This document shows positions 3,240 to 14,976 of a DNA stretch of 37,586 bases, in pieces. The DNA is from a virus. Positions within the stretch are counted from its first letter, which is position 1. Each line of letters opens with the position of its first letter. A model generated the notes under the pieces. That model made no database searches. It had not been told where the DNA came from and saw only the letters and a program-made list of their open reading frames with translations. The position numbers and the translations under genes were made by a program. The stretch lies in IMG/VR virus record IMGVR_UViG_3300031951_000530, positions 1-37,586 of that record. One strand, 5' to 3'.

Positions 3240-4214
3240 TTAACCAGGGATGATCAGCGCAACAGCCGAGTCATCACGCAACTCACCAACACCGTAGAGG
3301 GTGTCAGCAGTCAACAACGTACCAAGATACTCTTGCTTGTACTGAGTCTGAACACGAATACCAAGTTGCTCAACCAGAACACCAAACTCAGGGTGTGCCA
3401 TCAAGCAAACACGGGGATTCACATCACCAGCACCAGCCGTCGTAGCCGTATCAGCGTTGGTAGAAACATAAACCTTGACACCGTAGATGTCACCGATTTG
3501 ACCATTGCGGATAGTGTTTCCAGAACCAACTTCACCAGTAAAGGCTTGCTCAGTGAAGCGAGCCAGTCCCATCAGAACATTACGAGCAACAGGAGGAACG
3601 ATGAAGAAACGACCAGACATCGGAACATCAGCATCATCCAGACGCTGAATAGCACGACGGATACCGTCATCAGTCAGAGCAGTCTCGTTTCCAGTGTTGG
3701 TGCTAGCCGTAGGATCAAACGCAGTAGCGCCATCACCACCGATGAAACCATTAGCATAAGTAAAGGTAGCATCAGTACCGTTCCAAGTACCGCCTTGCGA
3801 CAGACGACCAAGACGAATAACATCAGTATCAATCTGAGTAGCCAGCGAATAACCAGCATCATCAGTGTAGAACCGACGAAGTGACGACAGAGCCTGAACT
3901 TCAGCAAAGTCCTCGATCAGACGGCTGTACTCATAATGCTTGTTAATCGTAACAGTCTTCTCAGTACCGCTTTCAGCATTAACAGTAACCTGAGTGTTAG
4001 CAGCCTTAACAGCAGCAGATGCACGAGCAGGAGCAGGGAAATGAACAACATCGCCCTTCTTACCTTTCATGTTCATCTTCTTGATGAGGTTCGCAGCAAC
4101 AAGATTCTTCTTGTAAGCAGCGATGATCTCATCAGACCATACCTCAGGAATAAAACCAGCAGAGTTAACATTACTCTGAATTACATTACCAGAACCAGAT
4201 CCAAGTGCGGGCAT
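3240..4214 (-). CDS. Major capsid protein
   Basis: The 324-residue product has the features of an HK97-fold podovirus coat protein. It has an N-terminal segment FIPEVWSDEIIAAYKKNLV, a central KGKKGDVVHFPAPARASA with TINKHYEYSRLIEDFAEVQA, and later FIVPPVARNVLMGLARFTEQ and GDIYGVKVYVSTN. It ends with GIRVQTQYKQEYLGTLLTAD and LYGVGELRDDSAVALI. It follows the scaffold gene and is followed by a strong terminator, the usual setting for the most abundant virion protein. The start ATG gives MPALGSGSGNV. Identification rests on these familiar segments and on gene order. Confidence 0.88.
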   Translation of the reverse strand: MPALGSGSGNVIQSNVNSAGFIPEVWSDEIIAAYKKNLVAANLIKKMNMKGKKGDVVHFPAPARASAAVKAANTQVTVNAESGTEKTVTINKHYEYSRLIEDFAEVQALSSLRRFYTDDAGYSLATQIDTDVIRLGRLSQGGTWNGTDATFTYANGFIGGDGATAFDPTASTNTGNETALTDDGIRRAIQRLDDADVPMSGRFFIVPPVARNVLMGLARFTEQAFTGEVGSGNTIRNGQIGDIYGVKVYVSTNADTATTAGAGDVNPRVCLMAHPEFGVLVEQLGIRVQTQYKQEYLGTLLTADTLYGVGELRDDSAVALIIPG

Positions 4215-4244
4215 TTTGAATATCCTTTTTAAAAAGTTAAGTTA

Positions 4245-5039
4245 TTACCTAACTCGTCCTTCAGCATACGCAGCCATTATTTCAGGTTGCATAAGATCAT
4301 AACGGTCAGGATCAGTTTGCATCAATCGAATAATATCAGCCCTTCGATAAATCTTCTTAGATGGGGCTTCATCACTACCCTGTGCAGGAACCGTAGATGC
4401 AGCTTTGAGTTGGCGTTGACGATCAGTCTTTTCAGCGGCTACAGTTGCCTTTGCAACTTGGTTGCGCTCTTTCCATGTTGACAGCAACTCATCAGCAGAG
4501 TCATAATCGTATGCATTTGCTTCCGCAAACAACCGAGTACGAATCTTTGATGAAGCCACCCAATTCTGAAATGCAGGATCTTCAACAGTCTGCATAAAGT
4601 CTGGGTAATTCTGTTTCAACAAGTTAATCGTTTCTGCCTGTTTCATCTGAAGAGCAGCCATTTCTGCTTGCTTAACCTTCGGATGATTCTCAATCGCTTT
4701 TGCTACCGCCTGTTCAGGGTTGGCAAAGAAGTCAATCTCTTCTGCTACCTGGGGCTGTTGCTGCTGTGTTGAAGTTTGAGCCTTAATGAATTCATCAACA
4801 ATCTTACGCAGTTCACCAACTTCACTACCCTGTCGCCCAATCAGCTTTTCAGCCTCAGCATGCATTCGGATAATCTCTTTGACATCTTTGCCCCGATATT
4901 TTTCAGGAATGTCTTCTTCTTGTGGTGCTTCTGCCTCTTGTTGAATTTCCTCTTGAACTTCCTGACTTTGATCCTCAACTAAGGAATCAGTCGGTTCTGT
5001 AGAATCATCAGTACCTTCTTCTATAAACTGTGCAGCCAT
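4245..5039 (-). CDS. Scaffolding protein
   Basis: The 264-residue protein is acidic and Glu/Gln-rich in its first 50 residues. It then has the segment EDIPEKYRGKDVKEIIRMHA with helical, coiled-coil-like sequence through about residue 110. The basic C-terminus KKIYRRADIIRLMQTDPDRY with PEIMAAYAEGRV is typical of podovirus scaffolds, where it binds the coat protein. It lies directly upstream of the capsid gene. A strong ribosome site (AAGGAG) precedes the ATG. It would direct procapsid assembly and then leave or be degraded. Confidence 0.85.
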   Translation of the reverse strand: MAAQFIEEGTDDSTEPTDSLVEDQSQEVQEEIQQEAEAPQEEDIPEKYRGKDVKEIIRMHAEAEKLIGRQGSEVGELRKIVDEFIKAQTSTQQQQPQVAEEIDFFANPEQAVAKAIENHPKVKQAEMAALQMKQAETINLLKQNYPDFMQTVEDPAFQNWVASSKIRTRLFAEANAYDYDSADELLSTWKERNQVAKATVAAEKTDRQRQLKAASTVPAQGSDEAPSKKIYRRADIIRLMQTDPDRYDLMQPEIMAAYAEGRVR

Positions 5040-9985: not shown

Positions 9986-10155
9986 ATCTAGGTTGCACCA
10001 ACATAGTGCATCACCGATCTACACTAGCACACACCATGCCAAGAGTAATCACTAACATAGCTGCCTGCCTGCGAACCCTTATATCACCGTCACTAGGGAA
10101 AACACCTAGTCAATTAAGATGGCTTGCCGTAGCCATTTTAATAACCTTACATTCG

Positions 10156-11111: not shown

Positions 11112-11245
11112 AAAAATATCCATTGCGACACAATCAATTCTACATTGACCCATTCGACCTATGGTGCGATCGTCACCCTATCGTCGCTGGATCAATCTTC
11201 GGTGCAATAATGTTGACATTGATCTTTGTCGGTTGTCTCGTTTAA
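11108..11245 (+). CDS. Small membrane protein (45 aa)
   Basis: The start overlaps the preceding stop (ATGA). The product is MKKYPLRHNQFYIDPFDLWC followed by DRHPIVAGSIFGAIMLTLIF and VGCLV. Residues 25-45 form one transmembrane segment with a charged N-terminal part facing the cytoplasm. Single-span early proteins of this size are common in phages; the function is unknown. Confidence 0.6.
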   Translation: MKKYPLRHNQFYIDPFDLWCDRHPIVAGSIFGAIMLTLIFVGCLV

Positions 11246-12217: not shown

Positions 12218-12451
12218 ATGATGCGCTGCCGTTCTTGTGATGAGGCTTTGACTGATTACGAAACCACTAGAAAATCACTAGCCACTGGTGAATACATTAA
12301 TATGTGCAAGAGTTGTTTCGACAGCATCAAAGGGGACTGCCTTGCCTTTGGCAATCCTGCGCTGATGAGCGACGATGACGACATATACTCTAATGGAGAT
12401 TTCGATATCGACATTGTGGACTATGATGAAGATGACTACGACGAGAGATAA
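12218..12451 (+). CDS. Small zinc-ribbon protein with acidic tail
   Basis: The product starts MMRCRSCDEALTDYETTRKS and has CKSC further on, giving two CxxC pairs that should bind zinc. The C-terminal 30 residues are almost entirely Asp and Glu (DDDDIYSNGDFDIDIVDYDE). I placed the start at the ATGATG at 12218-12223, which follows AAAGGA. A longer frame from 12155 would overlap the upstream gene and add unlikely sequence. Nucleic-acid mimicry or protein binding is possible. Confidence 0.7.
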   Translation: MMRCRSCDEALTDYETTRKSLATGEYINMCKSCFDSIKGDCLAFGNPALMSDDDDIYSNGDFDIDIVDYDEDDYDER

Positions 12452-12485
12452 CATTGGCATGGTTCTTGCTAATATTATTAATATT

Positions 12486-12581
12486 ACTCTATAGTGCTAT
12501 AGAGCAACATTGCTCTATAGAGTAAAGTAGATAATTTATAATTATAATTTATACTCTATAGAGTTCTATAGAGCAACATTG
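12486..12581. repeat. CTATAG palindrome cluster with a direct repeat, before 12595 gene
   Basis: CTATAGAGCAACATTG occurs at 12497-12512 and 12566-12581. Each copy ends a hairpin: CTCTATAG-TG-CTATAGAG (12487-12504) and CTCTATAGA-GT-TCTATAGAG (12554-12573). A third palindrome CTCTATAGAG lies at 12513-12522, and an AT-rich stretch with TATAAT strings lies between. The unit sits in the 140 bases before the next gene. Operator clusters, an origin or RNA hairpins are possible. Confidence 0.65.
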
Positions 12582-12594
12582 AAAGGATATAACG

Positions 12595-12783
12595 ATGGAT
12601 TCTGAACGAGTGTTCATTTTTGCAGTGCATGATCTTGTCGAATTGATTGAGTCGAATGAGGTCGATCTTTTGTCGGTTGTCTCTTCTCTTCGTCGCCAAC
12701 TGCACAGACCTGACCAGCAGGTTGAGCAGGTCTACTCGGTGCTGTCTGCGAAGGTAGCAGAGGAAAGGTATTTTCAAAAATAA
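12595..12783 (+). CDS. Small hypothetical protein (62 aa)
   Basis: The product is MDSERVFIFAVHDLVELIES with VDLLSVVSSLRRQLHRPDQQ. It is predicted helical and follows a clear ribosome site (AAAGGA). It is the only gene directly behind the CTATAG palindrome cluster, so it may be the regulated or regulating partner of that cluster. No family recognised. Confidence 0.6.
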   Translation: MDSERVFIFAVHDLVELIESNEVDLLSVVSSLRRQLHRPDQQVEQVYSVLSAKVAEERYFQK

Positions 12784-12841: not shown

Positions 12842-13420
12842 ATGAAAACATGCAAAACCTGTGGAGTTGAGAAAGAACTGACTGAATTTAGCACTAATGG
12901 GAAAAGTAGAAAAGGAACAACGATCTATTCTGCCCACTGTAAAAGTTGTCGTGCTTTGTCTGCCAGGACTGAAAGGAGTGAAAACCAAAAGAATATGAGT
13001 TGCGCTTGTTGCGGTGCTGTTTTTAAGTTTGTGAATAAGTGCAACAGAACGGAAGATTATTGTGGCTCTTGTTACCCAATGTACAGACAGGCTTATAAGA
13101 TGTTTCACAACATACAACATAGAAGCAAGACAAAGGATATTCCTTTTGACTTAACTTTAGACTTTATTTTAGGAGAACTAAAAAAGGGACAATGCCCACG
13201 AACAGGAATAAAATTCACTTTTGCCGATAACGGGAAAAACATGGGAGCAAGGAAAGCAAGCACTCCCAGCATCGATAAAATTGATCCAAATAAGGGATAT
13301 GTTAAAGACAATGTACAAATCGTTTGTTGGTGGTACAACCTTTCAAAATCCACTTTTACTGATAATGAGGTGATCGAATTATGCAAAAGAGTAGTCCAGC
13401 AGTGTTCGTCAAGCATATAG
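12842..13420 (+). CDS. HNH-type homing endonuclease with N-terminal zinc finger
   Basis: The 192-residue product starts MKTCKTCGVEKELTEFSTNG, a zinc-binding module common in phage HNH proteins, with more Cys pairs (CKSC, CACCGAVF, CGSC). The C-terminal half contains CPRTGIKF, then PSIDKIDPNKGYVKDNVQIV and WWYNLSKSTFTDNEVIELCK, the usual core of phage HNH-like nucleases. The start follows a perfect AAGGAGG site. Its 3' end overlaps the primase-helicase start by 40 bases. Free-standing HNH genes next to replication genes often spread by homing; that activity is inferred. Confidence 0.85.
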   Translation: MKTCKTCGVEKELTEFSTNGKSRKGTTIYSAHCKSCRALSARTERSENQKNMSCACCGAVFKFVNKCNRTEDYCGSCYPMYRQAYKMFHNIQHRSKTKDIPFDLTLDFILGELKKGQCPRTGIKFTFADNGKNMGARKASTPSIDKIDPNKGYVKDNVQIVCWWYNLSKSTFTDNEVIELCKRVVQQCSSSI

Positions 13421-14976
13421 CGTGTGATGAGTGCGGATCTTCCGACGCTAATGCGCTCTATTCCGACAATCATTCCTATTGTTTTAGCTGCATGGCACAT
13501 AAAACCCACGAAAACGGCTCAGGAGAGGCTCCAATGGTGCTGGACATACCTACACTACTACCAAGGCCTAAGAAGCCCACAGAGGCTGTTTTAGACTGTT
13601 CTAGAGGCATTGCTGACAGGAACATCACTGCCGATACCTGCAAACACTACGGAGTAGGATCAAATGATGATCTACACCATTATCCGTATGGTGCTGGTGT
13701 AAAGGTTAGAACAGTGGCAACCAAGGACTTTCATTGGCAAGGCAAAGCTGAACATGACCTATTTGGTATGGATCGCTTTCCTGCTGGTGGTAAGGCTGTC
13801 ACTATCGTTGAAGGTGAGTTAGATGCTTTGGCAGCGTATCAGATGCTTGGATCAAAGTATGCGGTGGTTAGCGTCAGAAACGGTGCATCAGGTGCGGTGA
13901 AAGACTGTCAGAAAGCCTATGAGTGGCTAGACAAGTTCGACAGCATTGTGATTGCCTTTGATGCTGATGAACCAGGACAGAAAGCCTCTAAGCAGGTCGC
14001 AGAGTTATTCGGCAACAAGGCCAAGGTGGTGAAGTTCTCGCCTGAGTTCAAAGATGCCTGTGATTATCTCAAGGCCAACAAGACGGCTCAATTCGTGCAG
14101 GATTGGTGGAGAGCAGAGCAGTATATCCCTGACGGCATTGTGGCAGGGACGAATCTCTACGATGAGGTGATGAAGCCTCTAGCAAAGGCCAATGCACACT
14201 ATCCCTATTCGGGGCTAGACTTGTTGACTGGTGGTATCAGAGAGCAAGAGATGGTGGTGGTCACTGCTGGTAGTGGTCTAGGTAAGTCACAATTCCTAAG
14301 AGAGGTTATCTGGTCTCTTCTGTCGCAAACTACCGATAACATCGGTCTAATGTTCCTAGAAGAAAGTGTTAGGAAAACTGGACTGTCTATTATGTCACTT
14401 GCAATTAACAAGCCTCTGCACTTGGCTGAGACTGTTGCATCTGATGATGATAAGCAGAGGGCTTTCGATAGCACACTAGGCACTGATCGATTGTTTCTCT
14501 ATGATTCATTTGGATCGAACACTATCGACAATATCGTTAGTAGAGTTCGCTACATGGCGAAGGCACTAGAGTGCAAGTATATCTTTCTCGATCATGTGTC
14601 GATTGTGATTTCATCACAGGAAAATGGAGACGAGCGCAAAGCCTTGGATGAGATAATGACTAAGTTGCGGATGATTGTGCAAGAAACTGGTATAGCCTTG
14701 TTTGTTGTTTCTCATCTGAAAAGACCTGAAGGCAAAGGCCACGAAGAGGGCGCTGCAACATCCTTGGCTCAGTTGCGTGGATCAGGTAGCATTGGACAAT
14801 TGGCTGATATGGTGCTAGGATTAGAGCGTCATGCTCAAGCTGATGACCCAATCGAGAGGAACACCACTAGAGTGCGAGTGATTAAGAATCGATACAGTGG
14901 TGAGACTGGTCCAGCCTGTGCTGTGCTATACGATAAATTCACTGGAAGGATGACGGAAGTGAGGGAGGCACTATGA
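13381..14976 (+). CDS. Primase-helicase, T7 gp4-like
   Basis: The 531-residue product combines primase and replicative helicase. The N-terminal zinc site uses C15, C18, C34 and C37. The Toprim domain has E145 in TIVEGELDAL and D194/D196 in IAFDADEPG. The RecA-like helicase has Walker A GSGLGKS (297-303), Walker B IFLDH (401-405), the motif VVSHLKRP, the DnaB motif LRGSGSIGQLADMVLGLER (466-484) and a probable arginine finger in NRYSGETG. T7 gp4 is slightly longer (566). It would unwind DNA ahead of the polymerase encoded at 17855. The start overlaps the HNH gene but is needed to keep the zinc site. Confidence 0.93.
   Translation: MQKSSPAVFVKHIACDECGSSDANALYSDNHSYCFSCMAHKTHENGSGEAPMVLDIPTLLPRPKKPTEAVLDCSRGIADRNITADTCKHYGVGSNDDLHHYPYGAGVKVRTVATKDFHWQGKAEHDLFGMDRFPAGGKAVTIVEGELDALAAYQMLGSKYAVVSVRNGASGAVKDCQKAYEWLDKFDSIVIAFDADEPGQKASKQVAELFGNKAKVVKFSPEFKDACDYLKANKTAQFVQDWWRAEQYIPDGIVAGTNLYDEVMKPLAKANAHYPYSGLDLLTGGIREQEMVVVTAGSGLGKSQFLREVIWSLLSQTTDNIGLMFLEESVRKTGLSIMSLAINKPLHLAETVASDDDKQRAFDSTLGTDRLFLYDSFGSNTIDNIVSRVRYMAKALECKYIFLDHVSIVISSQENGDERKALDEIMTKLRMIVQETGIALFVVSHLKRPEGKGHEEGAATSLAQLRGSGSIGQLADMVLGLERHAQADDPIERNTTRVRVIKNRYSGETGPACAVLYDKFTGRMTEVREAL

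Follow-up and report, generated by a model that had tools for sequence, protein, structure and literature searches.

Bacterial promoters served by sigma-54 (RpoN) follow the consensus mrNrYTGGCACG-N4-TTGCW, and transcription from them starts about 12 nt after the GC. These promoters need an activated enhancer-binding protein in order to fire. The early genes of phages that depend on the host polymerase are usually assumed to be driven by sigma-70, and a search of the open-access literature, the coverage of which is incomplete, turned up no description of such promoters in lytic phages. Among described phages, a primase/helicase related to the one discussed here (45-51% protein identity) is found in the Pelagibacter phages HTVC103P and HTVC115P, in Siovirus and in the Zobellviridae (Methylophilales phage MEP402). 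No DNA relative of the region beyond 68% identity across 387 bp of the primase gene was detected among phage isolates.

The whole stretch of virus DNA analysed here, 37,586 nucleotides long and referred to as the window, has its structural genes encoded on the minus strand, and its plus strand holds an early/replication block. Its genes include those for a primase/helicase, DNA polymerase A, ThyX, ribonucleotide reductase, a 5'-3' exonuclease, a portal and a terminase. At the locus of interest the upstream neighbour is the gene of a 76-aa CxxC...CxxC protein (12221-12451, plus strand), recognized as an open frame and by alignment. This gene was used as the anchor for finding relatives, and at least 565 of them were present in viral contigs. 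The MEP phages have the CxxC gene too, and the exact -24/-12 motif described below is absent beside it in MEP401, MEP402 and MW202796. On the other side of the locus lie the gene of a 62-aa protein (12595-12783, plus strand), whose orthologs directly precede the primase gene, and the primase/helicase gene itself (13381-14976, plus strand; PHROG 239, E 9e-169), the main product of the operon. An endonuclease VII/HNH-like gene at 12842-13420, between the 62-aa and primase genes, is absent there in relatives and is probably a mobile insertion. The first scan for a host in genome contigs was empty, and the second yielded a single weak bin and otherwise just distant primases.

The conserved string TTGGCAYGRTTYTTGC, which we take to be the sigma-54 -24/-12 consensus, begins 3 bp past the stop codon of the anchor gene. 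The full element, TTGGCATG-GTTC-TTGCTA, occupies 12454-12471 on the plus strand, with its GG at 12456-12457 and its GC at 12468-12469, and these doublets stand 10 bp apart within the pattern TGGCAYR-N4-TTGC. A search with the stricter TGGCAYG-N4-TTGCW returned a single exact match in the window (12455-12470, 0 mismatches) where 0.03 would be expected. By the general sigma-54 rule, the predicted transcription start falls at 12481 on the plus strand, 12 nt past the GC of the -12 box. The element observed by sequence, spacing and position sits just outside 12486-12581 and immediately upstream of a cluster of CTATAG palindromes. We infer from the sequence the use of sigma-54, the start site and the activator.

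We consider it probable that this cluster is the 5' leader behind a sigma-54-type promoter of the phage replication operon; its palindromes are best read as RNA leader hairpins that vary from lineage to lineage. A closed complex of host RNA polymerase and RpoN would form on 12454-12471, a host enhancer-binding protein would activate that complex, and transcription would begin near 12481. Because the start is expected there, the cluster would lie wholly within the predicted 5' leader, forming roughly the first 100 transcribed bases of a leader that runs to GAAAGGA, ahead of the start of the 12595 gene. In the leader RNA, as far as the ribosome-binding site, the CTATAG palindromes would fold into stem-loops, and the promoter would drive the replication operon from the 62-aa protein through the primase/helicase and onwards. 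The role of the hairpins as RNA is the least certain part of this explanation.

Evidence for the promoter comes foremost from its conservation. Circularity was avoided by counting only loci that had been found by protein similarity, which left 70 distinct loci. TGGCAYR-N4-TTGC occurs within 120 nt 3' of the anchor gene in 60 of these, and the spacer measures 4 nt in all 60, with spacers of 1-3 or 5-8 nt in none. Both boxes are kept while N4 differs (GTTC, ATTC, GTTT, GAAC, AAAC or ATCC); N4 and the leader diverge among relatives and the -24 and -12 boxes stay constant. The remaining 10 loci comprise six with an inserted gene, two with a sigma-70 promoter (L020 and L021) and two in which the anchor pattern matched elsewhere (L022 and L029). 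In five of the six loci with an insertion the exact motif lies 3' of the insert, and the sixth contig apparently ends too early. In L017 the insert (4117-4668) is a DNA methyltransferase gene (PHROG 757) lodged exactly between promoter and CxxC gene, with similar cases in L086, L209, L214, L243 and L245; despite this insertion the motif of L017 remains adjacent to the leader.

Conservation of TTGGCATGGTTCTTGCTAAT could also arise from coding, if a small membrane peptide (GMVFAN...) spanned the promoter and leader. Open frames with a hydrophobic stretch do run across the motif in L006, L007 and L008, but even there, where a peptide is possible, the third-position bases are identical across the motif. 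In the window the peptide frame ends at the first CTATAG, and most relatives have ACG in place of ATG and closed frames. Variation in N4 while the boxes persist further argues against a conserved peptide: the variants GAAC (L197, L202, L228 and L229), AAAC (L234) and ATCC (L243) alter the peptide and leave both boxes intact. Based on the closed frames and the N4 variants, a coding origin of the motif was rejected for most of the family, and we regard it as very improbable overall. A possible small membrane-protein frame was nevertheless seen in one clade (L006:937-1140, L007:4557-4769 and L008:4051-4194), and the repeats of L007 are of the AGCGCT type instead of CTATAG.

Spacing was also compared across viral contigs at large, where the motif was present with correct spacing in at least 119 stretches and with one base added in 9; the 119 include some of this phage family, and most contexts lie outside it. 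Among the matches listed, a simple ORF test classed 85 of 115 distinct contexts as intergenic. Of 88 contexts outside the family, 16 have the motif with an inverted copy of itself immediately behind it, TGGCACG-N4-TTGC...GCAA-N4-CGTGCCA (among them L059, L078, L085, L097, L105, L113, L124, L130, L134, L137, L144, L146, L156 and L167), and it is not obvious how both copies could work as promoters in this arrangement. Further candidate sites were found closer to the locus. A second sigma-54-like site, TTGGCATG-GTGT-GTGCTA, lies on the minus strand at 10025-10042 in a divergent intergenic region and points toward the structural genes, and 24 of 50 relatives have sigma-54-like sites ahead of the anchor gene, some of these sites in facing pairs. 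Weak short-motif BLAST matches against phage isolates pointed to intergenic sigma-54-like sites in the Vibrio T5-like phages Thalassa and VCPH, 5' of A2/A2-A3 and A1 genes (L281:1503; L282:979-1518), with five such sites in VCPH, facing pairs among them.

Other polymerase arrangements for the window were examined as well. TTGACA-17-TATAAT-like sigma-70 pairs at the cluster score 9/12 at best, and their number in the region (14, with 10.1 expected) is unremarkable; TTGCTA-18-TATAGT, which overlaps the -24/-12 site, also has a sigma-70 score of 9/12 and does not exceed chance numbers. The T7-type RNA polymerase domain PF00940 was absent from the window and from the records of five relatives, with a positive T7 control, although the window record may be incomplete. 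A T7-type promoter was rejected on this ground, and unless the record is incomplete the host RNA polymerase is therefore assumed. The activator domain PF00158 was not found in the window record, and neither an enhancer-binding protein nor a sigma-54 gene was found within the window, so that an activator would need to come from the host.

At the corresponding position the two distant relatives L020 and L021 have TTGACA-17-TACAAT, which is a perfect sigma-70 promoter. The leader of L020 aligns with several leaders of the sigma-54 clade (e.g. L012, L060, L066 and L073) better than shuffled sequences do. A sigma-70 pair in the same place before a homologous leader therefore marks this position as a promoter slot, and one leader apparently stands behind two promoter classes, sigma-54 and sigma-70.

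The cluster itself (12487-12581) is densely built. It holds five CTATAG sites within 83 bp, out of a window total of 12; the expectation is 9.8 over 37.6 kb, or about 0.02 per 83 bp. An initial sequence-only reading had described a 16-base direct repeat occurring twice, 69 bases apart, hairpins with 8-bp and 9-bp stems and 2-base loops, and a third palindrome between them, and all of these were recovered. The direct repeat, CTATAGAGCAACATTG, is 16 bp long, lies on the plus strand at 12497-12512 and 12566-12581 (69 bp apart, start to start) and occurs exactly twice in the whole record; its second copy abuts the ribosome-binding site GAAAGGA (12581-12587, plus strand), of which AAAGG is invariant across 12 aligned leaders. 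The first inverted repeat, CTCTATAG-TG-CTATAGAG at 12487-12504, pairs arms of 8 bp across a 2-nt loop; in the other described hairpin, CTCTATAGA-GT-TCTATAGAG at 12554-12573, the arms measure 9 bp and the loop is again 2 nt. A further inverted repeat, at 12497-12520 with 11-bp arms and a 2-nt loop, exceeds every other short-loop inverted repeat of the window in length, and all three rank among the window's longest of this kind. At 12523-12562 there is an A+T-rich core (87.5%), unmatched in A+T content by any other 40 bp of the window, and 12470-12569 is its highest-A+T 100 bp, at 79%. Inverted repeats with arms of at least 6 bp span 72 nt of the 117-nt leader compared with 9 expected, and the longest direct repeat of the leader is 16 nt compared with 7.3 expected; each value was reached by 0 of 200 dinucleotide shuffles. 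The CTATAG/repeat cluster is not a chance product.

When the same interval is read in relatives, the palindromes differ from phage to phage. Of 27 leaders, only 7 show significant inverted-repeat coverage and 8 an excess of direct repeats. Turnover of the repeats is rapid. The palindrome at 12497-12520 forms, with its flanking bases, a 26-bp unit for which L002 has no equivalent, and in place of window 12554-12573 L002 carries precisely the reverse complement. Over the 9.1 kb compared, 14 positions distinguish L010 from L013, and nine of these changes fall in 16 bp of the leader (L010:4710-4725), giving rise to a perfect 18-bp palindrome; the near-identical pair reads as a natural example of template switching. 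The L250 leader contains a tandem repeat of 25 bp. These comparisons indicate that leader repeats evolve by duplication, inversion, hairpin-templated switching and slippage, and that the promoter is the conserved part of the locus and the palindromes a variable add-on.

The same events (the L010/L013 burst, the L002 inversion, the 26-bp unit and the L250 tandem repeat) would be expected if the palindromes were functionless and an A+T-rich non-coding leader simply gathered and perfected inverted repeats through hairpin-templated switching and slippage. Such a by-product leaves two observations unexplained, namely the enrichment of CTATAG at separate non-coding sites and the strand-specific wobble pairs at a hairpin of the early operon, and we consider it rather unlikely. 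CTATAG is the most enriched of the 64 palindromic hexamers in the 27 leaders (26 occurrences, 2.5 expected), and in the upstream non-coding regions, 38 in number, it comes second (32 occurrences, 9.0 expected), both counts being inflated by the shared ancestry of the genomes. Palindromes centred on CTATAG are present also at other non-coding places of related genomes, and because of this recurrence they are not random.

Whether the repeats could act as RNA was evaluated by folding. The sequence-only reading had held 2-base loops to be too tight for RNA hairpins. That objection was wrong, as the leader of the window folds well as RNA (z -4.6) and a 2-nt loop leaves an RNA hairpin possible because opening one pair yields a 4-nt loop. 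In a comparison of the two strands of this leader the complementary one folds even better (z -5.3, with -4.2 for the transcribed strand), both strands fold about equally across the family, and the median folding z of family leaders is only -0.75, most relatives showing no excess. Neither a consensus RNA structure among 12 aligned leaders, nor an Rfam match in the window, nor an intrinsic terminator (a G+C-rich stem and a T run) at 12487-12581 was found. Evidence at the RNA level comes from an intergenic hairpin in the early operon of relatives, CCTATAGTGTCTC...GGGGCACTATAGG (L010:3484-3545 and equivalents in L017, L118, L120, L122, L158, L166, L197 and L227). Its CTATAG-bearing arms are conserved, a second short hairpin comes after it, and in 8 of 8 variants the transcribed strand is the more stable one, because the changes pass through G-U pairs. 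This tolerance of G-U pairs is therefore RNA-level evidence at that site. By analogy, the hairpins of the window may act as RNA, a role to which we give somewhat less than even chances.

Near-equal folding of both strands is also what DNA-level symmetry predicts, as would be the case if the CTATAG palindromes were operators for a dimeric regulator, of phage or host, controlling this promoter and other early sites. The rank of CTATAG among leader and upstream hexamers and its recurrence in several contexts (e.g. CACTATAGTG and CTCTATAGAG) fit such operators, although the counts owe part of their size to common ancestry. CTATAG is missing from 13 of 27 leaders, one clade has AGCGCT-based repeats instead, and the outer flanks show little excess complementarity. 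The sequence-only reading had named the small helical protein at 12595 as the possible cognate regulator. Three helices are indeed predicted for this 62-aa protein (mean pLDDT 91.5), with no significant fold match, DNA-binding or other, in PDB or BFVD, no family match and no match among phage isolates. Its orthologs occur behind CTATAG-less leaders (e.g. L015 and L018), and in L269 (primase identity 55%; the sole related contig placed in a genome bin, Desulfocapsa) the ortholog overlaps the upstream gene, with zero spacer and no leader. Orthologs lacking palindromes or spacer count against a necessary protein-operator pair; the cluster does not travel with the gene, and the computable part of the observation named in advance as fatal to that pairing, orthologs without the palindromes, was thus encountered. 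Encoded just ahead of the primase, the protein may be a replication accessory. The further view that a regulatory interval splits the early unit here was borne out, a transcript start being predicted in it. Taken with the missing fold match of the neighbour, operators appear unlikely to account for the palindromes, and the leader of a sigma-54-type promoter remains our preferred explanation of the cluster.

If the locus were a replication origin, laid out like the T7 primary origin, its promoter, repeats and A+T-rich unwinding region would adjoin the primase/helicase gene, and synthesis would be primed by the leader transcript. The window's highest-A+T 100 bp do lie next to the primase operon, every leader in the set is 60-80% A+T, and by annotation the T7 phi1.1A/B promoters precede gene 1.1. 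The GC-skew minimum, on the other hand, is at 11200 and not at the cluster, the skew follows gene direction, and one relative has no leader at the junction; with the T7-type polymerase also missing, we hold an origin to be quite improbable. In T7 as here, a promoter and an A+T-rich leader are followed by a small gene. T7 differs in its single-subunit RNA polymerase, for which no counterpart was found, and although CACTATAG strings recur in the relatives, they have only the CTATAG core in common with T7-family promoters (CACTATAG core).

The wider reading of the sigma-54-type promoter is tentative: apparently lytic phages may tie the start of their replication operon to host sigma-54, the slot may be swapped between sigma-54 and sigma-70 with the leader kept, and CTATAG hairpins may be a shared early-region element. 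If this is true, phage replication would hinge on the signalling state of the host, e.g. nitrogen or envelope-stress sensing, because a sigma-54 promoter stays silent until a host enhancer-binding protein has been activated. Dozens of environmental phages have retained the element, and its sigma-70 counterpart is found in sister genomes. Compared with the sigma-70 early promoters of phages, of which TTGACA-17-TACAAT in L020 and L021 is an example in the same slot, the promoter of the window and of most relatives is of the -24/-12 type. It shares with bacterial sigma-54 promoters the canonically spaced GG and GC doublets, the 4-nt spacer, a T-rich N4, the W after TTGC and an intergenic position directly 5' of an operon, and it differs from them in standing before a replication module in a virus genome, in having CA-TG rather than CA-CG and in the repeat-rich leader that stands behind it.
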